Shown piece by piece: positions 3,001 through 22,385 of a stretch of 22,839 bases of DNA; within the stretch, counting starts at the first letter, position 1; each line of letters starts with the position of its first letter. This DNA comes from a virus, in the IMG/VR virus record IMGVR_UViG_3300029986_000086, positions 1-22,839 of that record; one strand, given 5' to 3'. The notes beneath the pieces were generated by a model. The model did not search any database, had not been told where the DNA came from, and saw only the letters and a list, made by a program, of their open reading frames with translations. The position numbers and the translations under genes are program-made.

Positions 3001-3881
3001 ATATTCCGTCAGGAACAACTATATCTGGATTTACTGCTACTGGTTCAATAATTTTGTCCGCTTCTATAACTGGCACGGTAACTACTGCCACTATTAATGG
3101 AACAATTACTGCCGTTACTAGTGTTAGTAGCGGAAATATCCTAGCACCATCTTGGATTCAATCTAAATCAATTAAAGATATTGGTTTACAAAATATGGTA
3201 TTATGCGGGGCGCAAGCTCAGATCGACCAAAGCGCACAACATTTAGTATATCAAAATTCTTCATTATTAACATATACAATTGGAAGCGGAATTACTGCTG
3301 GATACCTATATACTAGATTATCATCTACTGGCGCATTAGCGGCGGCATCTGCCGAGGCTGTAACTTTCCTAGATTGTTTGATGGGCGGGTATTATAATTA
3401 TAGTACAGTTAGTACAAGTAAACGATTTATGGATTGTGTCTTTGCTGACAATAATCAACATATTGGTTTGCCATTATATGGAACTGGCTCATCTACATTT
3501 AAAACTATATCTACATCAGCGGCTTCTAATTCTGGCACAAATACGTTATATTTTAGTAATACAGCCGGATTATTTGTCGGAATGGTGTTATCTCCATCTA
3601 GTTCTATTCCAGTAACAACAGTCATAACGTCTGTTAGCCCTACTAGTATAACTATAAATAATATGTTGTCTGGTAACGTAGCACTTAATTATGGTGTATC
3701 ATTTACACTACCACCAACATTAAACATGACAATTGCGCACAGTGGTAATTTTAAACCTTTAAATGGGTGTGTAACATTACCAGTAAGAGGAAATCTATCT
3801 ACCGGATTACCATTTGTTCCTTATGATGCTCTGTTAGCTAATACGACTATTAATTCTGTTGTTGGCGCAGTCCAACCATAA
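3..3881 (+). CDS. Repeat-built tail-fibre-like structural protein, 5' end missing
   Basis: The reading frame is open from the first complete codon at base 3. The first ATG (base 21) has no Shine-Dalgarno sequence, so the true start is probably left of the window and about 1290 C-terminal residues are visible. The protein is rich in Thr, Ser, Gly, Val and Ile and has almost no charged stretches. About eight divergent copies of a 55-65 residue unit are spread along it: a TLxF/S start, GLxVGMxVxGxxIPxGTxV, then a TTxxTLS strand. They lie near residues 20, 120, 220, 420, 630, 700, 990 and 1190 counted from the ATG. Such repeats occur in large phage fibre, baseplate or virion-surface proteins and should fold as beta structure. 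Exact role (fibre, capsid decoration or tail) is inferred only. No enzymatic motif was seen. Confidence 0.75.
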   Translation, partial: SNVNNLMIDVLPYMASAPFTVASNAASGDNTLSFAATTGILVGALVTGVGIPVGTVVKDMTTTLLILSNNITSAISSGATVTVTGGAIITRQIPDLNTMTVTVGSSAGGKVVPLTSPSSTVGLGLYVGMYVTNVSGANTVGAGATIVSFTNNSITLSGGSTSNGDVISLNGTGYLILPVHKVSFTGIVFDAFANPTTGVLYNNINTTLSSGQLYPQYTTLTSAVIAGVTGTTIQCSTSGMTVGSIAKGSVVTGACFSPWTYVVSFTTTSITLSCPPIANAPAGTVVVVTSMPGILRVKNGGFVNPYGIMGPALVNATINESDGAMLNYSYSYCFLSIEEGVYLTIGGPSATLLRNAHVSICWDYQFLLGGTQLNNFSGLRQFNNKLIGPRLCQNVLLATTSSTTITNKLDLTVSVLTTAGAPIGSQTFSVNSTTGLSIGMVAKGTNMAATSFGTIAGVTATTVTLTNGCIGFVPAGTKIIFGYSIISIGAPSSGVTQFNLNMLSGNSTAAISNIVQAPSGTVRATVGSTSNFYSGQEYWVSTVVGSKASLLPALGKNNYSLMNGNFIVNVIDSNNMDFGTIEGGYNDIPYYDPLDTYVSGGVIGPSYDGIIIGGNNTNGTATNYTAAYSTKSNITVTSSSGTRLVMSSLSGIYPGMPVSGTGIPAGTYVVATDTQTLSVTLSQPITSSVTSATFGQMLTSYGSTNGIAISASSGNVLTCASGVIFAATVGASITGTNIPTGTYVTGTTATTIILSQNVTGTVTTAFTGCTCIVYGDVSNISVGDSCTITVPEHPDLMQYADDPTDFSVNDENFFYQGCILNTIGHQILLAQRSQVTGIGNVTTSGRVATISAPTLTVGATCVHNVGTNLTTIPWSSPPSTLRTLYARVGCIMPSSCVVQFTSGALSGQSFQVVSQTSSVTTVLGDASAAIATDTALQPICIMPGDFIVANGGSVNQEGHPVTRAISPSQYQLSNPFSTDISMFSTVGLTASIGSTVTGSNIPSGTTISGFTATGSIILSASITGTVTTATINGTITAVTSVSSGNILAPSWIQSKSIKDIGLQNMVLCGAQAQIDQSAQHLVYQNSSLLTYTIGSGITAGYLYTRLSSTGALAAASAEAVTFLDCLMGGYYNYSTVSTSKRFMDCVFADNNQHIGLPLYGTGSSTFKTISTSAASNSGTNTLYFSNTAGLFVGMVLSPSSSIPVTTVITSVSPTSITINNMLSGNVALNYGVSFTLPPTLNMTIAHSGNFKPLNGCVTLPVRGNLSTGLPFVPYDALLANTTINSVVGAVQP

Positions 3882-4464: not shown

Positions 4465-5051
4465 TATTATCACCATTTTTAAAAACAAATGAATTACCAA
4501 AAGGGTTGTATGTAACCACTAAGCTCGACGGCAGGACGCGGGTTGATGCTGTTCTCACCGGGGACTGTGAATTTATAGAATTTAATTCAATTGCGGAAGC
4601 AGAAGATCATTTTTTAATATTGGTTGATACAGATATTGTCGATAAACCATTAAATCCAGATGACTTCGCTTTGACTTTGAATAAAGCAGCAAATAAGGTA
4701 GCTACCCATTCTCTACGCGCTAAGGCAAATATTATATTAATAAATCCAAAAACTTTAAAGGAATTTGTTGATTATAATAATAGCGGTAAAGATTTAGGAC
4801 GATGGACAGAAGTTTATATCGATCAAAATAGAAACTTGAATATGATGCGTTCTAAGTGTGAGTTTATGAGTGAGGCATTTAAATTTTATGTGTCAGAATG
4901 CATTCCTGAGAACGAGGTGGTTCTTGCGTTTTTTAACACCCATGTTGATATTGATGTTCCCGGAATCGTTTTTGATAATGTGTTGATTTATGCGCCATCT
5001 AATAAAACTACTTTAGGCAGTGATACACGGGTGAGAAGGATCGTATGGTAA
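4461..5051 (+). CDS. Hypothetical phage protein, 196 aa
   Basis: I do not recognise this protein. It starts at an ATG overlapping the previous stop (ATGA) with GGAG 5 nt upstream, so it is probably translated together with the deoxyribosyltransferase-like gene. It is soluble in character, mixed alpha/beta, with an acidic N-terminal half and a beta-like C-terminal part ending in VRRIVW. There is no signal peptide, membrane segment, cysteine cluster or nucleotide-binding motif. Its stop codon is joined to the next small gene through TAATG. Linkage to the upstream enzyme suggests a shared expression programme, not a proven shared function. Confidence 0.7.
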   Translation: MILSPFLKTNELPKGLYVTTKLDGRTRVDAVLTGDCEFIEFNSIAEAEDHFLILVDTDIVDKPLNPDDFALTLNKAANKVATHSLRAKANIILINPKTLKEFVDYNNSGKDLGRWTEVYIDQNRNLNMMRSKCEFMSEAFKFYVSECIPENEVVLAFFNTHVDIDVPGIVFDNVLIYAPSNKTTLGSDTRVRRIVW

Positions 5052-5182
5052 TGAAAAATTATATATATGCTTTAATATTATTGTTTATAATGGCAGTATG
5101 CGTTGTGATAGCTGGTAGTCAAAAGGGCGGCTTATTTTTCAACTCTGATATCGTTAAATGTGTGGTGATTTATGGAATGTAA
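5051..5182 (+). CDS. Small single-helix membrane protein, 43 aa
   Basis: A short gene fits exactly between its neighbours. Its ATG overlaps the preceding stop (TAATG at 5049-5053), with AAGGA about 10 nt upstream, and its end overlaps the following start by 11 nt. The product begins MKNYIYALILLFIMAVCVV, a single hydrophobic helix of about 18 residues, followed by a short tail (GSQKGGLFFNSDIVKC). It could be a small inner-membrane phage protein or have an uncleaved signal anchor. An alternative ATG at 5045 in the same frame would add two residues. The tight overlap on both sides is the main support. Confidence 0.55.
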   Translation: MKNYIYALILLFIMAVCVVIAGSQKGGLFFNSDIVKCVVIYGM

Positions 5183-5864
5183 ATTTACTGATGATAAGGT
5201 TAATAACCTGATTAACACCATTAAAGCCGATATTGGTGACAGTCTTGATAAACATTTATTTGATTTTGATCGTGAAGAAGTGATAAAAGAATATACTAAA
5301 TCTCTTAATAATCTTCCCGGTATATACGATTCAAAAGTTGAATTAGTCGAAGAAACATGGGAGACTTTATATCCTAATATGGCGCAACGGCTTGCGATCA
5401 TGTTGGCTTATGAAAACGATGAAATCAACTTAAAATACCATGATGTCCTACCGGACCATGCCAAAATTTATCCTTATAAATATAAAGGAGATTGGTGTGT
5501 ATGGTTTGATTGTGTTGATGAGGATGGTAAGGTATACCGGGACAAGGAATGGTTTTTTGATGGTAGTAGCACACTAGAAGACGTTATTGAGGAAATCGGT
5601 AACGAGTATTATGTTGGTAAAAATCCGACTATTATTCCAATCGTTTCTTGGGAATTGTGTGTTCCGAGAACTTATTTTAATTGTTATATTAAACCAGTAA
5701 AACCCATTGAATATATTACTCTCGATTGTATTATAACGAATGAGATAAAAAATTTGGCAAAACGCCAAGAACCATTAGGTGAGGAATTTGAAAAAGTCCT
5801 ATCTGATAATTTATGGGACTTATATAAAACGGACACGCCTGAAAAACCGGAGAATAAAAAATAA
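5172..5864 (+). CDS. Hypothetical acidic protein, 230 aa
   Basis: I recognise no family. The protein is acidic, with a helical N-terminal region (residues 1-80), a central beta-rich part with aromatic residues (YKGDWCVWFDCVDEDGKVYRD near 103-123) and a charged, Pro/Lys-rich C-terminus (EKPENKK). There is no membrane segment and no clear zinc or catalytic motif. It starts inside the end of the 43-residue membrane protein gene with only a weak GGTG element upstream, so translation is probably coupled. The 19-nt gap to the next gene contains a strong Shine-Dalgarno sequence, which argues that the following gene is expressed independently. Confidence 0.7.
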   Translation: MECKFTDDKVNNLINTIKADIGDSLDKHLFDFDREEVIKEYTKSLNNLPGIYDSKVELVEETWETLYPNMAQRLAIMLAYENDEINLKYHDVLPDHAKIYPYKYKGDWCVWFDCVDEDGKVYRDKEWFFDGSSTLEDVIEEIGNEYYVGKNPTIIPIVSWELCVPRTYFNCYIKPVKPIEYITLDCIITNEIKNLAKRQEPLGEEFEKVLSDNLWDLYKTDTPEKPENKK

Positions 5865-6316: not shown

Positions 6317-6389
6317 GGTTCCATAGCTCAAAGGATAGAGCAAGTGCGTCCTAAGCACAAGGTTGCAGGTCCGAGTCCTGCTGGAATCG
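6317..6389 (+). tRNA. tRNA-Arg (anticodon CCT)
   Basis: A full cloverleaf can be drawn: acceptor GGTTCCA/TGGAATC with one G-U pair, T8 A9, D stem GCTC/GAGC, anticodon loop GTCCTAA (T33, CCT), T arm GCAGG/CCTGC with loop TCCGAGT, discriminator G. Position 27-43 is an A-A mismatch. CCA is not encoded. It reads AGG, a codon rare in many high-GC hosts. Confidence 0.9.
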
Positions 6390-6432
6390 CTTAAAGATTG
6401 TGGGTAAATCTCTCAAACTTTATAACATATAT

Positions 6433-6545: not shown

Positions 6546-6622
6546 GGGACTCGGGAATGGCTGGTGCCTGTTCGACGGTCTGAAAAACCGTAGTCGCATT
6601 TCGATTATGCGGGGTCCCACCA
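6546..6622 (+). tRNA. tRNA-Phe (anticodon GAA), CCA encoded
   Basis: Acceptor GGGACTC/GGGTCCC (one wobble), D stem GAAT/GTTC, anticodon arm ACGGT-CTGAAAA-ACCGT (T33, GAA), T arm CGCAT-TTCGATT-ATGCG, discriminator A and encoded CCA at 6620-6622. Positions 8-9 read GG instead of the near-universal T8, and the variable loop is only 3 nt, so the core is unusual. The anticodon assignment is clear. Confidence 0.8.
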
Positions 6623-8041: not shown

Positions 8042-8050
8042 TATAACCTT

Positions 8051-8119
8051 TCGATAGTAGTACAACTCTAGTACGCTCCACTTGCGGGAGTGATGAAGGT
8101 CCGAACCCTTCCTATCGAC
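8051..8119 (+). tRNA. tRNA-like gene, anticodon uncertain (TTG in standard register)
   Basis: Acceptor TCGATAG/CTATCGA, TA, D stem GTAC/GTAC with a 7-nt loop lacking GG, anticodon stem GCTCC/GGAGT with loop ACTTGCG, T arm GAAGG-TCCGAAC-CCTTC. Position 33 is C, not the near-universal U, and the variable loop is 3 nt. In the normal register the anticodon would be TTG (Gln), and T1-A72 fits Gln, but this is weak. It may be degenerate. Confidence 0.6.
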
Positions 8120-8124
8120 TTTAT

Positions 8125-8198
8125 GGTCCTGTCGTCTAATGATAAGGCGAGCGGTCGATACCCGTTAAACCATGGTTTGATTCCATGCAGGACCACCA
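8125..8198 (+). tRNA. tRNA, likely Ile (anticodon GAT), C33, CCA encoded
   Basis: Acceptor GGTCCTG/CAGGACC, D stem GTCT/AGGC with a 7-nt loop without GG, anticodon arm AGCGG-TCGATAC-CCGTT, T arm CATGG-TTTGATT-CCATG, discriminator A, encoded CCA (8196-8198). The anticodon in standard register is GAT with A37, as in tRNA-Ile, but position 33 is C. It lies six bases after the previous tRNA-like gene. Confidence 0.65.
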
Positions 8199-8280: not shown

Positions 8281-8363
8281 GCTCATGTATACCGCTCCGC
8301 TACGAACGGAGATTAAGTTAATTGGATAGGAAGATGCAGGTTCGAGTCCTGTCATGAGCGCCA
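8281..8363 (+). tRNA. Atypical tRNA-Arg-like gene (anticodon ACG) without a normal D arm
   Basis: Acceptor GCTCATG/CATGAGC, T arm GCAGG-TTCGAGT-CCTGT, discriminator G and encoded CCA are clear. The hairpin CTCCG-CTACGAA-CGGAG (8295-8311) has the same loop as bacterial tRNA-Arg(ACG). Only 7 nt separate the acceptor from this hairpin, so there is no D arm in its usual place. A stretch that resembles a D loop (AATTGGATA) follows the anticodon hairpin, but its stem does not pair. In the 82 bases before it (8199-8280) I see no gene, only a GGATG/CATCC hairpin. Confidence 0.5.
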
Positions 8364-8365
8364 TT

Positions 8366-8441
8366 CCCCTGTAACCCCTATAATTTTGATCATTATGGGA
8401 TTATATTAGTTTAATGTAGGTGCAATTCCTGCCGGGGGAGC
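8366..8441 (+). tRNA. tRNA-like element without a recognisable D arm
   Basis: Acceptor TCCCCTG/CGGGGGA and a T arm GTAGG-TGCAATT-CCTGC can be drawn. Between them lies a hairpin ATAAT-TTTGATC-ATTAT (TGA in the anticodon position, but T37 is unlike real tRNAs), and 8 nt replace the D arm. It may be a decayed tRNA or a different structured RNA. Confidence 0.4.
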
Positions 8442-8453
8442 AAAATTATTTCC

Positions 8454-9501: not shown

Positions 9502-9708
9502 ATGATAGCGTTTTTATTTGGGTTGGGTATTGGTGGTGTTGCTGGCGTTTTGTGGTTATTTGCCAAGCTATTGAAAGACTGTCCTTCTGTTAAGGATGCG
9601 ATTATTAAAGATGCGCAGGACCAAAAAGTCCCGGATGAGAAATTACAAAGACTGACAAAGTCACTGAATGAATCTCAAGAAATCGCCACTCGCTGGCGCT
9701 GGCTCTAA
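9502..9708 (+). CDS. Small N-terminally anchored membrane protein, 68 aa
   Basis: AAGGAG, 7 nt before the ATG at 9502, fixes the start; a longer reading from 9463 has no ribosome site. Residues 1-23 (IAFLFGLGIGGVAGVLWLFA) form one glycine-rich membrane helix. The remaining charged part (KDAIIKDAQDQKVPDEKLQRL) should be a cytoplasmic or periplasmic helix, ending RWRWL. The layout resembles small phage membrane proteins such as spanin-like or holin-like factors, but no specific evidence favours either. Confidence 0.7.
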   Translation: MIAFLFGLGIGGVAGVLWLFAKLLKDCPSVKDAIIKDAQDQKVPDEKLQRLTKSLNESQEIATRWRWL

Positions 9709-9720
9709 CCCCTAAAGAAT

Positions 9721-9812
9721 AATAGGTGGTGCTATCTTGATTAATGGGTAGTAACTAAGGAATTAGGGAGGTTTGCGGGTGTACAACCGTTTAATAAAAC
9801 TGACCACCTATT
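9721..9812 (+). ncRNA. Candidate structured RNA closed by a 10-bp stem
   Basis: AATAGGTGGT (9721-9730) pairs perfectly with ACCACCTATT (9803-9812). Inside are a D-arm-like hairpin (CTATC/GGTAG) and CTAA-GGAA-TTAG. The overall length fits a tRNA of the long-variable-arm class, but I cannot draw a proper anticodon or T arm. It lies between two protein genes and is followed by T-rich sequence. Confidence 0.35.
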
Positions 9813-9848
9813 TTATAATTAATAATATGAGACGTGAAAAGGTGGAAT

Positions 9849-14588: not shown

Positions 14589-14676
14589 GGGGGATGAATC
14601 TACACGGCTGTAGAGGCAGACTTGAAACCTGTTCGGGGGCAGTGATGTCTCTTGGGATCGACACCTACTTCCCCCG
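14589..14676 (+). tRNA. tRNA-Ser (anticodon TGA), long variable arm
   Basis: Acceptor GGGGGA/TCCCCC plus a T-T mismatch at 7-66, anticodon loop CTTGAAA as in bacterial tRNA-Ser(TGA), a long variable arm (GGGGC/GTCTC) and discriminator G, typical of Ser. The T arm is weak (TTGGG-ATCGACA-CCTAC). Pair 31-39 is A-C. The D arm can form a 6-bp stem with a 4-nt loop (TCTACA-CGGC-TGTAGA), a shape otherwise typical of tRNA-Sec. Confidence 0.75.
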
Positions 14677-16137: not shown

Positions 16138-16246
16138 TTTGGTTCCTTGGGGGGTTCGTTGTTATTTATAAAATTATTGAAATTTAAAATTTTAAAAATC
16201 AACAACCTACTTTACCTGAACCTATTTACGTGCTATGTTTTTTAGT

Positions 16247-16723
16247 ATGTATTACAACATCATCTCTTTAGAAAAAAAATTATGTATCATAGCCTATTCT
16301 CGTGAGTGTTACAGATGGGGTCATGAGTGTGGATACCACGCCGAAATACGCTATGATAATGCCCTTAAGTTGATAACTCGTATAAGAAAATATGCGATAG
16401 AAAACAATTTACCCGATGATGCCCCTGAATGGGATTTGTCTATGTATATCGGGTTTGATGGAAATGATTCGCGCCCAGATCAACCAAGTGGGGACCATAT
16501 TTATTTTGATCGACCGGCACCGGCTCTGAGAGAAGAAACCATGCTTAGGGAACCATTACCAATTGATGGTATGGCTTGGACGCCAACACCACAAACGGCA
16601 ACAGCAACTAATATGCATTGGGATGGTGTGGCTTGGCACAGCTATAGATATATACAACCAATACAAACAACACAAATAGCTACTACTACATATGTGACAG
16701 CGGGAGCAACAAATGTACTATAA
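16247..16723 (+). CDS. Paralogue array member 1, 158 aa
   Basis: First of five tandem homologues. The shared domain covers residues 1-72: MYYNII start, a Y-x-W region (YRWGH), an RYDNALKLITRIRKYAIEN helix and LPDDAPEW. The remaining 85 residues are Pro/Thr/Ala-rich low complexity, including PQTATATNM, which recurs in member 2. The ATG at 16247 is chosen because the family starts MxY; an ATG at 16235 is also possible. No Shine-Dalgarno is visible. A possible -10 (TATGTT, 16234-16239) would make the mRNA nearly leaderless. The family is unknown to me; no membrane or catalytic motif is seen. Confidence 0.65.
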   Translation: MYYNIISLEKKLCIIAYSRECYRWGHECGYHAEIRYDNALKLITRIRKYAIENNLPDDAPEWDLSMYIGFDGNDSRPDQPSGDHIYFDRPAPALREETMLREPLPIDGMAWTPTPQTATATNMHWDGVAWHSYRYIQPIQTTQIATTTYVTAGATNVL

Positions 16724-17342
16724 TGTAATTTGCGTGGATAAAAATAAGGTTATTACTTATTATGATGGACATGATTATTATGTATGGGAGCTTATTAGCG
16801 AGACAACAGGGACCCGTTGTAGATTGTCTTATACAGACGCAACCAAACTTGTTCGAATAATGCAACAAAAAGCAGTAGCTAATGATTATTCTAAAAATTC
16901 ACCAGAACTTAATTGTTCGATTGTTCCGGCTGAATCCGTGCGGCTTGATATGAATGAACCCGGATTTATAAATGGTGCGTTCCTCAGGGCAGCGGATTTG
17001 CCGGGGTATAATGCCCCCGGTCATCGTGGCGGCATTGATTGGGCAATTATCAGAGATGCTAATGTTATATATGATGATCCTTGGTTCCATTATGATGGGG
17101 ATAGAAGGTATGGTTATAGAAGAACCGCGCAAACCGCGCAAACCGCGCAAACCGCCACCACGGCAACCGCAACTAACATGTTCACCAATGGTTTAATACC
17201 AACTGATACATATATGCATCCGTTGATGAATTATGCTTATGAATCGAGGGCACCAGAACCTGAAACCCCGCTTCCACTCAAATATAGAGCGCAACATTAT
17301 TTGGATACGAGCAACAACCATATTAGGAAAGTGAAAAGATAA
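16713..17342 (+). CDS. Paralogue array member 2, 209 aa
   Basis: The start overlaps member 1 by 11 bases. The conserved domain is residues 1-72: MYYNVICVDKNK, DYYVWEL, LSYTDATKLVRIMQQKAVAN and a degenerate SKNSPEL in place of LPxxAPEW. A longer variable C-terminal part follows, with GINWAI-like and DPWFHYDGDRRYGYR segments, an AQTAQTAQTAT run encoded by a 9-bp tandem repeat, and a tail rich in Pro, Arg and His ending IRKVKR. Like member 1 it carries a low-complexity TATATNM block. Function unknown. Confidence 0.65.
   Translation: MYYNVICVDKNKVITYYDGHDYYVWELISETTGTRCRLSYTDATKLVRIMQQKAVANDYSKNSPELNCSIVPAESVRLDMNEPGFINGAFLRAADLPGYNAPGHRGGIDWAIIRDANVIYDDPWFHYDGDRRYGYRRTAQTAQTAQTATTATATNMFTNGLIPTDTYMHPLMNYAYESRAPEPETPLPLKYRAQHYLDTSNNHIRKVKR
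17123..17158 (+). repeat. 9-bp tandem repeat, three exact copies and one degenerate
   Basis: The unit AACCGCGCA is repeated exactly at 17123-17131, 17132-17140 and 17141-17149, then imperfectly to 17158. It encodes a repeated Ala-Gln-Thr motif in paralogue member 2 and stays in frame, so copy number can change without breaking the gene. Confidence 0.9.
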
Positions 17343-17343
17343 T

Positions 17344-17622
17344 ATGTTATATAACATAATTTGTGATGGAGGGAATTTTGGGATCACTGATAGTAAAAGA
17401 TATAGTAACGGTTATACTTGGGAATGGGTAAAAACCAAAGGGAATAATTTTAAACAGTTTTCATATAAAGAAGCGGTTGACATTTCGAGGCATATTCTCG
17501 AAAAAGCGCGACATAACGGCTTGCCAGAAGATAATAAAGAATGGGGTGTGGTTGTTGCTGTGAGCGTGGGACCACAAAGTTTTTGGGCGTTACCTGATTA
17601 CATCATACCCCGAAACATTTAA
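17344..17622 (+). CDS. Paralogue array member 3, 92 aa
   Basis: It starts one base after member 2 with only a purine-rich GAAAAG upstream. It consists almost solely of the shared domain: MLYNIICDGGN, GYTWEWV, FSYKEAVDISRHILEKARHN, then LPEDNKEW, and a short hydrophobic end without the long tails of members 1 and 2. It is followed by a promoter and the first non-coding RNA candidate. Function unknown. Confidence 0.7.
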   Translation: MLYNIICDGGNFGITDSKRYSNGYTWEWVKTKGNNFKQFSYKEAVDISRHILEKARHNGLPEDNKEWGVVVAVSVGPQSFWALPDYIIPRNI

Positions 17623-17625
17623 TGG

Positions 17626-17659
17626 TTGATTATAAAGATCCTTAGTCTATACTAAGGAT
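17626..17659 (+). promoter_or_regulatory. Promoter with 8-bp inverted repeat for RNA candidate 1
   Basis: TTGATT (17626-17631), 16-bp spacer, TATACT (17648-17653). ATCCTTAG (17638-17645) and CTAAGGAT (17652-17659) flank and overlap the -10 box, as a possible operator. The start is expected near 17660. Confidence 0.6.
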
Positions 17660-17868
17660 AGGTAGTCGTGTTTACCTCAATTAACGCGGAGATTCTATGG
17701 TGTCTTATATCATGGGGGTTAAGATTTTGTCCTACAACAAAATCCCCGTGGGGATTGGGCAGTGTCCATCCGGTTTTTATTGCATGGGATTGCAGGGGTT
17801 TTGCCTCAAGAAACTTGAATTCCTAAGGCTTTACCCGGTGTGCCTAGAACACCGGGTTTTTATTTTTA
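17660..17868 (+). ncRNA. Candidate non-coding RNA 1, about 200 nt
   Basis: The unit runs from a promoter to a strong terminator. It contains hairpins GGTA/TACC at the 5' end, GATTTTGT-CCTACA-ACAAAATC and ATCCCC/GGGGAT that partly exclude each other, and G-rich stretches. A GTG-started frame of 52 codons (17668-17826) ends before the terminator, but its ribosome site would lie upstream of the predicted start and its product is not protein-like. An ATG frame at 17697 runs through the terminator. I therefore favour RNA. The class is not recognised. Confidence 0.5.
17833..17868 (+). terminator. Rho-independent terminator of RNA candidate 1
   Basis: ACCCGGTGT (17833-17841) pairs with ACACCGGGT (17849-17857) around a 7-nt loop, followed by a T-tract (TTTTATTTTT). 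Confidence 0.9.
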
Positions 17869-17884
17869 ATATCAAAACTAATAA

Positions 17885-17913
17885 TTGACTATGAGCCGAG
17901 CTTCCGGCATACT
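17885..17913 (+). promoter_or_regulatory. Promoter for RNA candidate 2
   Basis: TTGACT (17885-17890), 17-bp spacer, CATACT (17908-17913). The start is expected near 17920. It follows directly on the terminator of RNA candidate 1. Confidence 0.55.
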
Positions 17914-17919
17914 CCAAAC

Positions 17920-18200
17920 ATCGACGGACCAATAGACACGTGGTGATTTCTAATTCTTGGCGGCAGGGAAAAGAAATCATATTACCGCCAACCATTTGTT
18001 GTTTCCCGAAGATAGGACTGAACTTTCCATTAAGATGTTCCGAGTGCATCTCTATACCCGTTAGCATAGAGAAGGTTCGTGTTAGACTTCCATAATGTCT
18101 AAGTCGCTTGATGGTGAAATAGCGGATTCAGACTTACCCCGAATCCAATCCATCACAATAGGGCTTGTGGTGGGGGTGCCCGGAACCCCCACCATTTTTA
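17920..18200 (+). ncRNA. Candidate non-coding RNA 2, about 280 nt, with pseudoknot
   Basis: No convincing gene fits between this promoter and its terminator, but pairing is dense. TGATTTC (17944-17950) pairs with GAAATCA (17973-17979) and TTGGCGG (17957-17963) with CCGCCAA (17985-17991); the arms interleave, so they form an H-type pseudoknot or two alternative states. GAACTTTC (18020-18027) pairs with GAAGGTTC (18071-18078), enclosing AGATG/CATCT and CTCTAT/ATAGAG hairpins as a three-way junction. TTAGAC/GTCTAA and a nested TGATGG...CCATCA hairpin follow. It does not look like tmRNA, RNase P RNA or 6S RNA by eye. It lies between paralogue members 3 and 4 and 2.5 kb before Ro60. Confidence 0.6.
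18168..18200 (+). terminator. Rho-independent terminator of RNA candidate 2
   Basis: TGGTGGGGGT (18168-18177) pairs with ACCCCCACCA (18185-18194) around a 7-nt loop, then TTTTT. Confidence 0.9.
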
Positions 18201-18221
18201 ATATGAATAAGGATAAAAATA

Positions 18222-18527
18222 ATGCAATATCAAATCGTATCTGAATCGGCAAAAAGAGTAATTAAAGCTGCTGACACGCGGGAAGGGTCGCCTTCCCGTT
18301 ATATTTGGGCTGATGCGGGTACTTCCCTCGCGTATCCGTTTAATTATAATGCTGCTCGTAATTTAGTCAGAAGCATGTTGAAGTATGCCGAGCATTATAA
18401 TTTACCAGAAACCGCGCCGGAATGGAATACATGTGTCATGCTGTACGAAGAAGTCGCCACTAATGGTGAGCGGCAGAATTCTTCTAATGTTATAGATGTT
18501 TCCGCCTATAGGGACAATAGGGGTTAA
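18222..18527 (+). CDS. Paralogue array member 4, 101 aa
   Basis: AAGGAT about 7 nt before the ATG gives a clear start just after the terminator of RNA candidate 2. The shared domain fills residues 1-75: MQYQIVSESAKRV, RYIWADA, FNYNAARNLVRSMLKYAEHY, LPETAPEW, followed by a short polar tail. It is closest in form to member 5. With a terminator directly upstream and no clear promoter between, it depends on read-through or an unseen promoter. Function unknown. Confidence 0.72.
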   Translation: MQYQIVSESAKRVIKAADTREGSPSRYIWADAGTSLAYPFNYNAARNLVRSMLKYAEHYNLPETAPEWNTCVMLYEEVATNGERQNSSNVIDVSAYRDNRG

Positions 18528-18529
18528 TT

Positions 18530-18826
18530 ATGTTTTATCATGTAGTATCATATGATACCAAGCGTGTAGTGACACAATGTCAAGGTCTACAGGTTAATGA
18601 TTTAAGATACTATGTGTGGGCGAATGTAGAAAGTAGGTGCCTACGGTTTTGCATGGAGTATTCTGCGGCTAAATTCCTCGTTGATCGGATGTATAAACGG
18701 GCATTGATGCAGCATTTACCTGAAAATGCACCGGAATGGTCGGCGGTTATCGCTCCGCGTGACATGATACAAATCCCGCGTGTGGTTGGTACGCGAGAGG
18801 ATAAATCAGAAATGGTTTACATCTAA
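18530..18826 (+). CDS. Paralogue array member 5, 98 aa
   Basis: It begins two bases after member 4 and is probably translated with it. The shared domain is MFYHVVSYDTKRV, RYYVWANV, MEYSAAKFLVDRMYKRALMQ, LPENAPEW, then a short end (PRVVGTREDKSEMVYI). Three members end the domain with PEW preceded by an Asp- or Glu-containing LPxxA, arguing for a conserved surface or active-site role. I do not know the family. Confidence 0.72.
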   Translation: MFYHVVSYDTKRVVTQCQGLQVNDLRYYVWANVESRCLRFCMEYSAAKFLVDRMYKRALMQHLPENAPEWSAVIAPRDMIQIPRVVGTREDKSEMVYI

Positions 18827-18851
18827 ATAGCCGATGGAAGATTAATAAATG

Positions 18852-18865
18852 GTAAACGCGTTTAC
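18852..18865. promoter_or_regulatory. 14-bp perfect palindrome, possible operator
   Basis: GTAAACG/CGTTTAC is a perfect palindrome without spacer in the 71-bp gap before the membrane protein gene at 18898. It fits a binding site for a dimeric repressor. A 12-codon frame also crosses it (ATG at 18849), probably by chance. Confidence 0.4.
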
Positions 18866-18897
18866 TACAACAAAAATGAAAACATAGGATTTAAACA

Positions 18898-19128
18898 ATG
18901 AGTAGACGCCCAACACTATCTTGGTATCTAAACCTTATCATCAGTATTATTTTCATTGTGTTAGTCCTATCCGATAGCATGTCATATATGATATATGGCA
19001 CGATACATAATCTTTTAATTGTTAGAGTGATGGAATCATTTTTTATGATTTTTGGCGTTCTTAAGATCGCTTATTGGTTGTGTGTCAACCCTTATTCGGA
19101 CGATGAAACGCCGCCAGAAGATGACTGA
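18898..19128 (+). CDS. Two-helix membrane protein, 76 aa
   Basis: AGGAT 7 nt before the ATG supports the start. Two hydrophobic segments are visible: about residues 10-29 (YLNLIISIIFIVLVL) and 42-65 (VRVMESFFMIFGVLKIAYWL), with an acidic C-terminus (DDETPPEDD) expected in the cytoplasm. Position upstream of the SLT muramidase makes a holin-like lysis role conceivable, but the intervening 300-base leader and promoter suggest separate expression. Function not assigned. Confidence 0.65.
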   Translation: MSRRPTLSWYLNLIISIIFIVLVLSDSMSYMIYGTIHNLLIVRVMESFFMIFGVLKIAYWLCVNPYSDDETPPEDD

Positions 19129-19154
19129 TTTATAACAAATATTAAAAATTTGTC

Positions 19155-19183
19155 TTGCTAACTCACATTTTTCCCTATATACT
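19155..19183 (+). promoter_or_regulatory. Promoter for the structured leader of the muramidase
   Basis: TTGCTA (19155-19160), 17-bp spacer, TATACT (19178-19183). The start is expected near 19190, just before the first hairpin. Confidence 0.6.
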
Positions 19184-19189
19184 CATAGA

Positions 19190-19261
19190 CGATGAAAATA
19201 GGCGATAATTACTTGTCGCCTATTTCGCATTAAAACACTGGTATAATTTACAGTGTTTTTA
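19190..19261 (+). ncRNA. Candidate 70-nt small RNA or attenuator
   Basis: Directly after a promoter come AAATAGGCGA/TCGCCTATTT (19196-19225, perfect 10 bp) and then AAAACACTG/CAGTGTTTT (19232-19259) followed by T, which looks like a terminator. This is a compact small-RNA layout. Alternatively it attenuates the muramidase gene. The loop of the second hairpin holds an extended -10 (TGGTATAAT), so a second promoter is possible. Confidence 0.5.
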
Positions 19262-19267
19262 GTCTGT

Positions 19268-19369
19268 GATAGTATTATGAATCAGACACTAAGATTATGT
19301 TTGTAATAACATTCAGTGTCGTGGAGTAATGAGGTAGTTTGCCTTCTCCTGAAATATTCAAATACTATC
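19268..19369 (+). ncRNA. Three-way-junction RNA in the muramidase 5' leader
   Basis: GATAGTATT (19268-19276) pairs perfectly with AATACTATC (19361-19369). Inside are two hairpins: GACACT/AGTGTC (19285-19320) with an inner ATGTT/AACAT, and GGAG...AGG/CCT...CTCC (19323-19349). AACAACG/CGTTGTT (19374-19408) follows before the ribosome site. I see no gene in 19129-19427. It may control the downstream gene as a leader, or be a separate RNA. Confidence 0.45.
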
Positions 19370-19427
19370 ATCTAACAACGGTTGGTCAATGGTGTCCACA
19401 ACGTTGTTAATTTTGAAAGGTAAAAAT

Positions 19428-19892
19428 ATGAAGTATATCATGACTATATTGGCTTGTCTTTTTGCAGGGGTTTCGTGCGAAGCCCGCGCCGACGACAAGG
19501 CAATTATAATTGCATCAGCCGCTAGCATGGGCATTAGCCGCCCGGTGATTGAAAAAGTGGCGGGACGTGAAAGTGGATTTAACTGCCACGCGTATAACCG
19601 TAGTTCTGGCGCGTCGGGACCGCTCCAAATCCTACCTAGCTCCGCTAGGGCGCTTGGGTATGGCAATGGTAGAGCCACGGCGGCGCTGCGCTCCTGTGGT
19701 ATGGGTTTGACTGCTGGTTTGAAGCATCTGCGCGCTTGCGTTGATGTCGTGGGTCAAAACCCTGCACGTGCGGCGTATTGCCATAATTTTGGTTTGGGTG
19801 CTGTCACTCATCGCCATTATGCTTCCGCCCATAGGCGTCATCAGCACTATGCCTCCGCGCATAGACATAGGCGGCATTATGCCATGCGTTAA
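19428..19892 (+). CDS. Secreted SLT-type muramidase (endolysin-like) with His/Arg-rich tail
   Basis: The 154-residue protein starts with a signal peptide (MKYIMTILACLFAGVSCEARA, likely cleaved after A21). A lytic-transglycosylase domain follows: G46-RESGF with E48 as the catalytic Glu, HAYNRSSGASGPLQILPSSA (the usual AxGxxQxxP pattern) and a helical second half with GLKHLRACVDVVGQNP. The end is a repeat of HYASAHRRHQ-type units, strongly basic. It would cut peptidoglycan in the periplasm of a Gram-negative host, for lysis or DNA entry. AAAGG 7 nt upstream supports the ATG at 19428 over 19389. G+C and GCG/CGC codon use are higher than in neighbours, suggesting acquisition from a bacterium. Confidence 0.85.
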   Translation: MKYIMTILACLFAGVSCEARADDKAIIIASAASMGISRPVIEKVAGRESGFNCHAYNRSSGASGPLQILPSSARALGYGNGRATAALRSCGMGLTAGLKHLRACVDVVGQNPARAAYCHNFGLGAVTHRHYASAHRRHQHYASAHRHRRHYAMR

Positions 19893-19912
19893 ACTTTATC
19901 AAAAATAAAGTC

Positions 19913-19941
19913 TAGACTTAAAATCCTCCAAGGTGTATAAT
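19913..19941 (+). promoter_or_regulatory. Promoter for the HD-domain gene
   Basis: TAGACT (19913-19918), 17-bp spacer, TATAAT (19936-19941), a perfect -10 in the loop of the 14-bp inverted repeat at 19920-19956. The start is expected near 19948, within GGAGG (19947-19951). Confidence 0.5.
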
Positions 19942-19958
19942 GCCTTGGAGGATTTTTT
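19920..19958 (+). terminator. 14-bp inverted repeat: terminator and ribosome-site hairpin
   Basis: AAAATCCTCCAAGG (19920-19933) and CCTTGGAGGATTTT (19943-19956) pair perfectly around a 9-nt loop, followed by T residues to 19958. It can end muramidase transcripts. The 3' arm holds GGAGG, the ribosome site of the HD gene (ATG 19959), so any read-through RNA would have that site closed. Confidence 0.75.
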
Positions 19959-20645
19959 ATGAGCCATTTTAAAGCATTGTTGATCGCCGCGCGGGTATTG
20001 AAAAAGGAATTGAAATCTCCGCACAGAAAATATCATGACATTAATCATATTTTCTATATGTGGAAAAATTATAAAAAATATAAGAAGTCAGTTGACACCA
20101 CGCCTCTTGAAGATACGGCGGTCAGGCTGGCTATCTGGTTTCATGATATTGTGTATTACGTTGATGAATTATATCATCATAATGAGACATACAGCGCCGA
20201 TACGGTGGAAGAAATAATTATAAACTTTGGCAACAGCTTTATAGAAATAAACGAAGACGCAGTTAAAATTTTAGAATATATGATCGAGATGGTGCGCGTC
20301 ATGATTCTTAATTCCGGCGACCATATTCACTATCATCCCGCTTATAGAGGCACTTACGTAGGGTTGTTTCTAGATTTGGATTTATTGTCCTTAGCCGATA
20401 TGCCAAATCTTTTTATCAATAATGCAAACATAATTGCTGAATTTGGAGATATCAGTAAGACCAGCGGCTTCTGGAAAAACCGAGCGGAATTTTTAGCAAA
20501 TTTGTTAATAAGCCGGTATGGGTTTTTTGAATTTTATATAGCTGATATTAATAAAGAACATGCCACTGCTGCCGAAACGGGAATAATGTTATTGTTGCAA
20601 CATGCAACTTTTACAGCAAAGATGCTTGACAATACACCAGAATAG
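19959..20645 (+). CDS. HD-domain metal-dependent phosphohydrolase
   Basis: The 228-residue protein fits the predicted HD-superfamily phosphohydrolases (COG4339-like): Y25-HDINH-30, FHD at 61-63 as the HD pair, HNETYSADTVEEII near 74-87, and DLDLLSLAD in the C-terminal half where the family has a conserved Asp. Such proteins bind divalent metal and hydrolyse phosphate esters, often nucleotides; the substrate of this group is unknown. In a phage it could act on nucleotide signals or pools, but that is inference. GGAGG 7 nt before the ATG is buried in the upstream inverted repeat. The Ro60 promoter lies in its last codons. Confidence 0.8.
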   Translation: MSHFKALLIAARVLKKELKSPHRKYHDINHIFYMWKNYKKYKKSVDTTPLEDTAVRLAIWFHDIVYYVDELYHHNETYSADTVEEIIINFGNSFIEINEDAVKILEYMIEMVRVMILNSGDHIHYHPAYRGTYVGLFLDLDLLSLADMPNLFINNANIIAEFGDISKTSGFWKNRAEFLANLLISRYGFFEFYIADINKEHATAAETGIMLLLQHATFTAKMLDNTPE

Positions 20646-20653
20646 TATATGTT
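20626..20653 (+). promoter_or_regulatory. Promoter for Ro60
   Basis: TTGACA (20626-20631), 16-bp spacer, TATGTT (20648-20653), overlapping the end of the HD gene. The start near 20660 leaves a leader of about 25 nt with GGGAGA before the ATG at 20685. Confidence 0.6.
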
Positions 20654-20684
20654 CTATTAACAATTAAAAACAGGGAGAAATAAG

Positions 20685-22346
20685 ATGACGAATTATGCAA
20701 ATATTTCTGGCAAGGCGCGCGTTCGCGCAACGACTGCGACTTCACAGGCGGCTCCGATTCCGGGGCGCGAGGCAGAGATGACGGCTAACCATGCCGGTGG
20801 GTATTCTTTCACTACCACGGAAATGCAGCGCTTGCGCCGCTTCCTCGTGTTGGGTGTCGAGGGCAATACTTATTATCAGGCAAAGAATGAACTTGTGCGT
20901 GAAAACGTCAAGGTTCTTGACCAGTTGCTTAAGTCCGATCCTATCGGCGTGATCAATGAAGCGCAGCGGGTGCTTAAGAATAATCTTGCATTTAAACAGA
21001 ATGCTCCCTTATTCGTGTTGGCGGCGGCTGCTTCCTACAAGGAAAATGGCTCCGTGCCTTCCGATATCGTGCGTTCGCGCGCCTTGTCGGTTGCCAGCGA
21101 GGTTATCCGCACTCCGTATAATTTGTATATGTTCGTCAACTATATTAACTCCATGCGTGGTTGGGGTCGTGCTGCGACTCGCGCCGTTGCGGATTGGTAT
21201 ACCGAGTCCCCGATTGATCGCCTTGCGATGCATTCTTGGAAGTATAAGAACCGTGATGGTTGGTCGCACCGCGACTTATTGCGTTTGAGTCATCCTAAGA
21301 CGGCTGACGCAACCCGCAACGCTATTTTCCATTATATGGTGAAGGGAACTTTGCCGGAAAATATTGAGGGCGCGGCATTGGCGCAAATTGCGGCGGCGGA
21401 AGAGTTGCTGCATTTGACCGGTAATGATAAGAAAACTGTTGATCGTGCGGTATCGTTAATCACTGATTTCCGATTGACTCGCGAGGCGGTTCCGACCCAT
21501 CTTTTGAATGAAAAGAAAGTATGGGAAGCACTTGTTGACGATATGCCTATCATTGCGGCATTGCGTAATCTTGGAAAGATGACCAATATTGGTCTTATTT
21601 CTACGCTGTCTTCTACCGAAGCCAAGTTGGTGGCTATGCTTACCAATAAGGAATTGGTGGAACGCTCTAAGGCGCATCCGATGCAGTTCTTGCTTGCATA
21701 CAACCAGTATGCACAAGGTAAGGGCGACAAGGGTAGCTTGACGTGGACTCCGAGCCGTAAGGTTTTGGACGGACTTAATGATGCTTTCGAGCTTTCATTC
21801 GGTAATGTTCCGGTTACGGGTAAGCGTATCATTGTTGCGGGTGACGACTCTGGCTCTATGCAGGGTGGTAACGTTATTGGGACGAATATGACTCCGGCTA
21901 AGGTCGCGGCGGCTATGATGTATATCACTGTCCGTACCGAGCCGAATGCGGTTCCGATTTGTTATTCCACCGCTTATAAGGACCTTCCTGTTGGTCGCCG
22001 CTCGTCCTTGGATGAAATGCTTAGGGCGTTTGGTCGCGGTGGTGGAACTAATACTGCTCTTCCTGTGCAATATGCATTGGATAAGAAGTTAGACGTTGAT
22101 GCAATCGTGTCTTATACGGATAATGAAACATGGGCTGATTATGGTTGGAATAGAAATGGGCACGTGACTCAGGTACATTCCCATCTTGAACAGCGTCTTG
22201 GTCACGAAGTTAAATTTGTGAACTGCGCTACTACCGCAACACAATGTACTGATGTTGATCCTAACAAAACCAGTATGTTCGAAATGGTAGCATTTTCGGC
22301 TGATACGCCGCGAATAATCTCAGCCATTATTAATGGCGATGCCTGA
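20685..22346 (+). CDS. Ro60 / TROVE-domain RNA-binding protein (Rsr-like)
   Basis: The 553-residue protein has the Ro60 plan. An N-terminal TROVE helical-repeat ring covers about residues 40-365 (start FTTTEMQRLRRFLVLGVEGN; NYINSMRGWGRAATRAVADW; WSHRDLLRLSHPK, a typical Ro60 stretch). The C-terminal von Willebrand A domain has an intact metal site: D387-x-S389-x-S391, T455 in GGGTNT and D479 in SYTDNE. Full length matches bacterial Rsr. Ro60 binds Y RNAs on its outer surface and ends of misfolded RNAs in its ring; bacterial Rsr works with PNPase in RNA turnover. A phage copy may guard or degrade RNA. G+C and codon use are higher than in neighbours. Own promoter and terminator; GGGAGA ribosome site. 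Confidence 0.95.
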   Translation: MTNYANISGKARVRATTATSQAAPIPGREAEMTANHAGGYSFTTTEMQRLRRFLVLGVEGNTYYQAKNELVRENVKVLDQLLKSDPIGVINEAQRVLKNNLAFKQNAPLFVLAAAASYKENGSVPSDIVRSRALSVASEVIRTPYNLYMFVNYINSMRGWGRAATRAVADWYTESPIDRLAMHSWKYKNRDGWSHRDLLRLSHPKTADATRNAIFHYMVKGTLPENIEGAALAQIAAAEELLHLTGNDKKTVDRAVSLITDFRLTREAVPTHLLNEKKVWEALVDDMPIIAALRNLGKMTNIGLISTLSSTEAKLVAMLTNKELVERSKAHPMQFLLAYNQYAQGKGDKGSLTWTPSRKVLDGLNDAFELSFGNVPVTGKRIIVAGDDSGSMQGGNVIGTNMTPAKVAAAMMYITVRTEPNAVPICYSTAYKDLPVGRRSSLDEMLRAFGRGGGTNTALPVQYALDKKLDVDAIVSYTDNETWADYGWNRNGHVTQVHSHLEQRLGHEVKFVNCATTATQCTDVDPNKTSMFEMVAFSADTPRIISAIINGDA

Positions 22347-22385
22347 TGATAAAGGGGTTCCTTCGGGAACCCCTTTATCACTTTT
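22347..22385 (+). terminator. Rho-independent terminator after Ro60
   Basis: TGATAAAGGGGTTCC (from 22347) pairs with GGAACCCCTTTATCA (to 22380) around a short TTCG-type loop, then CTTTT. It directly follows the stop codon. Confidence 0.9.

Follow-up and report, generated by a model that had tools for sequence, protein, structure and literature searches.

In Deinococcus radiodurans, the basal stem of a Y RNA binds the Ro60 ortholog Rsr, and the other end of this RNA tethers PNPase, leading to the decay of structured RNA (PMC8394870). In Salmonella, the tRNA-like end of YrlA has been suggested to act as an anticodon nuclease inhibitor (PMC7790460). As for phages, a survey of jumbo phages notes that some of them encode TROVE proteins and that these proteins have a tRNA-like partner in cells (PMC7824862); according to a paper on a Vibrio jumbo phage, YrlA is present in several phages (PMC7765460). 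Here we analyze a Ro60 gene in the IMG/VR virus record IMGVR_UViG_3300029986_000086, which was analyzed as a whole and is referred to below as the window. This linear viral contig of 22,839 bases is the full record; it has no end repeats and thus is probably a fragment of a phage genome. The source virus is a large tailed phage that carries a Ro60/Rsr ortholog. The best overall explanation, to which we assign a probability of roughly 0.7, is that this is a genuine phage Ro60 whose Y RNA lies beyond the contig, and that four structured stretches upstream of the gene (A to D) are not its partner.

The Ro60 ortholog of the window

The original prediction held that the window encodes a full-length Ro60 with an intact TROVE domain and vWA metal site, in a phage that carries many tRNA genes; both statements were borne out. 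The gene encodes a genuine full-length Ro60/Rsr ortholog: domain searches identified TROVE (PF05731, E 8.3e-36) followed by vWA_Ro60 (PF25045, E 6.5e-28), the protein matches PHROG 850, "RNA-binding protein" (E 1.1e-52), and phmmer detected similarity to Deinococcus Rsr (E 7.5e-92) and to vertebrate Ro60. In an alignment of 36 sequences, the metal-site residues D387, S389, and S391 (DxSxS), T455, and D479 are invariant. Residues K186, R190, and H203 align with K170, R174, and H187 of Xenopus Ro60, which we take to be its Y RNA contacts; among the 36 relatives, the first two are invariant and the third is more than 90% conserved. The AlphaFold model, made with 35 aligned relatives, shows a ring-shaped helical-repeat fold (predicted local distance difference test score, pLDDT, 90.3; predicted template modeling score, pTM, 0.88), and its top PDB matches are crystal and cryo-EM structures of RNA-bound Ro60, with template modeling (TM) scores of 0.87 by query and 0.91-0.93 by target. 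The protein is predicted to bind Y RNA and misfolded RNA. As for the tRNA genes, ARAGORN identified eight and Rfam two more (at 8125 and 8281), all on the same strand and spanning 6.3-14.8 kb.

Phage Ro60 is already known, and the window protein is a divergent branch of this family. A Ro60 relative was found in 362 of 50,697 phage records, mostly annotated as "Ro-like RNA binding protein." In a quick tree, the window Ro60 groups with the proteins of two sister loci, L019 and L020, as a long-branched clade of its own (Shimodaira-Hasegawa-like approximate likelihood ratio test, SH-aLRT, 100).

Y RNA genes at phage Ro60 loci

An alignment-based search identified 80 Ro60 loci in IMG/VR. Upstream regions of Ro60 loci share a common stem (here, Y stem) composed of an outer helix nnnGRGC, CGAA, an inner helix, a GGTTATC loop, and a 3' side CTTGCYC. 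A covariance model, R1, was built from 12 Y stems aligned by sequence alone; in this alignment, 92% of cells are paired compared with 40-48% in slid versions, and 53 cells are changed on both sides compared with 17 in shuffles. Across all 99 R1 matches, 93.5% of cells are paired and the covariation score is 0.90 against 0.27, although pair counts on this alignment (A3) lean towards structure because it had been fitted to structure. These 99 matches fall in 48 of 78 phage Ro60 loci, including those from which the 12 training sequences came. A second model, R2, built from the R1 matches and run on the 30 remaining loci, detected 34 further matches in 16 of them.

With a total of 133 Y stems in 64 of the 78 loci, most of the phage Ro60 loci tested also hold Y RNA genes. 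All 133 are on the Ro60 strand, with 115 upstream of Ro60 (median position, -418 nt) and 18 downstream, and 61 loci have one within 1 kb. Beside bacterial Ro60 genes, R1 detected 52 Y stems, again all on the Ro60 strand. Because the model searches ignored both strand and position, these provide independent support for the Y stems. The number per positive locus averages 2.1 and reaches eight at locus L032 (3121-3926). Chen et al. in 2014 reportedly found Y RNAs in the vicinity of Ro60 in numerous bacteria and phages. The Rfam YrlA model sees some phage Y stems only under its 69-bit cut-off, which was reached by none of the 40 contigs tested; at that cut-off, it is less sensitive to phage Y RNAs than the Y-stem model. 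Most phage Y stems score under it or go unseen by the Rfam model.

Both sister loci have Y stems directly upstream of Ro60 (36 bits in L019 and 63.5 bits in L020, the latter a Y RNA at 3726-3790), and in both the stem lies between Ro60 and a ClpS-family adaptor gene (L019, 3328-3666; L020, 3369-3671); no ClpS-family gene was seen in the window. As a separate observation, the Ro60 gene and large tRNA array of Gordonia phage Sixama adjoin a transfer-messenger RNA gene (4977-5398 in locus L005; Rfam, 88 bits) that is unannotated in the record.

The partner RNA of the window Ro60

There is no Y stem in the window, where the search covered 20.7 kb upstream and only 0.49 kb downstream of Ro60. With filters off, the best score in the whole window was 8.0 bits (E 3.6) for R1 and 8.1 bits (E 3.9) for R2, both at the level of chance, and neither model found a Y stem among the tRNA genes. 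In Rfam scans of the region and of the window, only tRNAs reached the cut-offs; a YrlA match of 13.5 bits at 6360-6411 was rejected as weak and overlapping a tRNA-Arg gene. A relaxed descriptor scan of the window, which recovers the Y stems of L019, L043, L072, and L076 and not those of L020 and L008, gave nothing convincing in noncoding DNA. The slot directly upstream of Ro60, which in the sister loci holds the ClpS-family gene and the Y stem, is occupied in the window by a gene for an HD phosphohydrolase-like protein; this gene ends 39 nt before Ro60, a gap too short for a Y RNA.

The original prediction had looked for the partner among the four candidate RNAs A to D, all within 3 kb upstream of Ro60, while remarking that none of them has an obvious YrlA module. 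The remark holds under Rfam YrlA and both Y-stem models; the proposal itself does not, as no candidate reaches a meaningful score against a Y stem, YrlA, or a tRNA-like module, and running Y RNA covariance models on the candidates, the check that had been suggested, gave no match in any of the four. A to D lack the set of CGAA, GTTATC, and CTTG motifs, and no Ro60-binding stem (outer helix, CGAA, inner helix to GGTTATC, 3' CTTG) was found there; a CGAAG in B (near 18007) might suggest a Ro60 motif but was dismissed, since neither a stem nor GTTATC follows it. No tRNA-like module with D and T arms was detected by ARAGORN or Rfam in 17600-20700. Thus, the four upstream RNA-like stretches are not supported as the Ro60 partner.

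All four do fold, as had been claimed, although A is weak and C consists of two plain hairpins, the second of which runs into a short T stretch and is terminator- or attenuator-like. A and B have the appearance of separate transcripts, each with its own terminator, situated among small paralogous ORFs (open reading frames). C and D have a promoter-like site (19155) on one side and a lysozyme-like ORF on the other and therefore are probably the 5' leader of this ORF. D is closed by a 9-bp helix, TGATAGTAT/ATACTATCA. In B (17918-18202), a long-range helix pairs 17919-17938 with about 18095-18113, and a putative H-type pseudoknot (GAUUUCU/UUGGCGG/AGAAAUC/CCGCCAA, near 17945-17993) was noticed by eye; this pattern had three matches in IMG/VR, without flanking similarity and, by a rough estimate, at about the frequency of chance.

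Compatible with a Y RNA outside the contig, and a tentative reading in its own right, is that A to D are fortuitous folds or ordinary terminators and leaders that yield no stable small RNA. A (17661-17872) folds only weakly (z -1.85; 12 of 200 shuffles do as well), C resembles a terminator, and D is inside a 5' leader. Promoter matches in this AT-rich stretch are only moderately above chance (30 sigma70-like matches versus 19.5 +/- 4.5 expected), and searches with A and B identified no homolog: BLAST against 20 related contigs or records returned only chance 15-30-mers, and blastn against phage records returned nothing. On the other hand, A and B each end at a strong terminator, no convincing ORF fits inside either unit (the short ORFs run beyond the terminator or look unconvincing), and C and D fold well below shuffles.

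The Y RNA of the window phage is most likely outside the contig because remote Y stems occur in six jumbo phages. In Sinorhizobium phage Phosso, Ro60 is at 290 kb and the Y stem at 420 kb; in Agrobacterium phage Atu_ph07, Ro60 is at 94 kb and Y stems are at 447 and 467 kb; and in four IMG/VR jumbo contigs Y stems are likewise more than 100 kb away from Ro60. Several of the remote stems are closely flanked by tRNA genes. Y stems inside tRNA gene clusters were noted in L099 (Phosso), L105-L108, and L115, at distances of more than 100 kb from Ro60 in the Phosso-like group. In sister locus L020, another Y stem, at 256 kb, likewise has tRNA genes nearby. The window phage could similarly encode its Y RNA elsewhere in its genome, possibly in another tRNA cluster, as a jumbo genome may hold tRNA clusters beyond those in the window. 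Several considerations weigh against this explanation. Both L019 and L020 keep a Y RNA beside Ro60, so that its absence from the window is unexpected; a remote location is inferred from a 22.8-kb fragment of the phage genome; a highly divergent Y RNA would slip past the models; and RNA binding by the window Ro60 is itself a prediction.

The window protein most likely acts as other Ro60 proteins do, in a ribonucleoprotein (Ro-RNP) in which the Ro60 ring takes the basal stem of the Y RNA on its outer surface and 3' ends of misfolded or structured RNA in its pore. Its role in infection may be RNA or tRNA quality control, stabilization, or directed decay: the Ro-RNP could help dispose of structured host RNA or, alternatively, protect the phage tRNA pool. 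Y RNAs among phage tRNA genes would fit protection of the tRNA pool, without discriminating it from disposal of host RNA. As a kind, a phage Ro-RNP has good support, given the bona fide Ro60, the frequency of Y RNAs at phage loci, and the jumbo-phage Y stems among tRNAs; what does not stand is the part assigned to the four local RNAs.

It is unlikely that the phage Ro60 dispenses with a phage-encoded Y RNA and instead either employs one from the host or binds misfolded RNA and tRNA ends directly. No Y stem was found in the flanks searched at 14 of the 78 phage loci, and bacteria with their own Ro60 encode adjacent Y stems, so that a host could supply one; however, several phages without a local Y stem have a distant one, and the retention of residues K186, R190, and H203 looks like selection for Y RNA binding. 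Less probable still is that Ro60 is partnered by a local RNA, most likely B, which would then be either a Y RNA that has diverged strongly or a partner of a non-canonical type. In favor of B are a fold better than those of its shuffles (z -2.84), promoter- and terminator-like sites at its borders, a long closing helix, and a position on the Ro60 strand 2.5 kb upstream; moreover, nothing else fills the Y RNA slot of the contig. Yet the descriptor scan (outer helix, CGAA or CGAG, 3' CTT) found no Y-stem motif pair there, R1 and R2 gave no match at E <= 10 and Rfam none, B is separated from Ro60 by five ORFs where typical Y stems are about 0.4 kb away, and the canonical Y stems of the sister phages argue against B as partner. 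We consider it very improbable that this lineage swapped its canonical Y RNA for an unrelated structured RNA, such as B (17919-18200), to give a Ro-RNP of new RNA architecture.

Genomic surroundings and comparison with known systems

Table 1. Coordinates of Ro60, neighboring features, and candidate RNAs in the window
Feature	Position	Strand	Basis or remark
Ro60/Rsr ortholog, 553 aa, TROVE ring and vWA domain	20685..22346	+	Domain, homology, and structure matches
Promoter-like site before Ro60, TTGACA-16-TATGTT	20626..20653	+	Consensus match only
Intrinsic terminator after Ro60, 15-bp stem	22347..22380	+	Terminator scan
HD-type phosphohydrolase-like protein, 228 aa, directly upstream of Ro60	19959..20645	+	PHROG 19425, 2.6e-19; no Pfam match
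Transglycosylase SLT (lysozyme-like) ORF, downstream of C and D	19389..19892	+	PF01464, 2.8e-9
Candidate A: promoter-like site 17626-17653 (TTGATT-16-TATACT), RNA ~17660-17862, terminator 17833-17857	17626..17872	+	Not Y-like
Candidate B: promoter-like site 17885-17913 (TTGACT-17-CATACT), RNA ~17919-18200, terminator 18167-18195	17885..18202	+	Not Y-like
Candidate C: two hairpins at start of presumed lysozyme-gene transcript	19185..19262	+	z -6.9
Candidate D: multibranch element in 5' leader of lysozyme-like gene	19267..19370	+	z -3.65 (19262-19420)

Among 12 related contigs or records, none has a homolog of the HD protein. Ahead of its gene, a perfect 14-bp inverted repeat (19920-19956) carries in its loop the TATAAT of a promoter-like TAGACT-17-TATAAT, so that a predicted terminator and promoter overlap there. 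For the lysozyme-like ORF, 19431 is the more likely start. When Ro60, the HD protein, and DNA ligase were each searched against IMG/VR, none turned up a close relative, and no overlapping contig for extension was found with the final 37 bases of the window. Small ORFs at 16235, 16713, 17344, 18222, and 18530 (within 16235-18826) form a paralogous family with the shared motifs ...YxW...LPExAPEW and no Pfam match among those tested; A and B sit between its members. A noncoding stretch at 9705-9815, closed by AATAGGTGGT/ACCACCTATT, is a possible further structured RNA.

Several tRNA-like genes are unusual. The one at 8281-8360 (Rfam, 34 bits, with a 21-nt insertion) has normal acceptor and T arms and is missing the expected D arm; a D-arm-like GTTAATTGGATAGG comes after the anticodon-like hairpin. 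Three stretches that neither ARAGORN nor Rfam called (8048-8118, 8381-8445, and 6546-6622) appear tRNA-like by eye, with acceptor-like stems, T arms, and unusual D or anticodon loops. A serine-type tRNA at 14589-14675 (TGA anticodon, long variable arm) was missed by ARAGORN, and its one Rfam match is to tRNA-Sec, at 41 bits versus a cut-off of 47.

The window protein extends a known phage family by a divergent branch, but more is gained from the comparison of phage loci, which yielded a covariation-supported Y-stem model and a pattern of Y RNAs across phage Ro60: there are often several in one phage, and several jumbo phages have them amid tRNA genes a long way from Ro60. Cultured phages, such as Phosso, Atu_ph07, Sixama, and relatives of Bxz1, now allow a direct test of what a phage Ro-RNP binds. 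The residual interest lies in this general pattern and in the missing Y RNA of the window phage.

Bacterial Y RNAs, including YrlA (RF02553), and the Rsr-Y RNA-PNPase complex, RYPER (PMC8394870), represent the partner class expected for the window Ro60. As in these bacterial systems, canonical Y stems lie beside most phage Ro60 genes; in contrast, the window has none, and its four local RNAs match neither the Ro60-binding stem nor the tRNA-like module. The protein has the same two-domain ring as D. radiodurans Rsr (2nvo) and vertebrate Ro60 (1yvp, 2i91, and 9nep) and keeps their metal site and Y-contact residues. Its TM scores against RNA-bound vertebrate Ro60 are 0.87-0.93, whereas identity to Rsr and vertebrate Ro60 in structural alignments is only about 30-34%. 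Unlike these proteins, the window Ro60 and its sister in L019 share an insertion after the YTDNET/YTDNNT motif, and the window contig is without a Y RNA gene. The Ro60 of Thermus phage phiLo (9l5y) is likewise a phage-encoded TROVE protein with a solved structure, although it is far more distant from the window Ro60 (18% identity, TM 0.55-0.64). The PHROG 850 proteins of Phosso, Atu_ph07, and the Bxz1-type mycobacteriophages are full-length homologs of the window Ro60, which is at most about 35% identical to annotated phage records.

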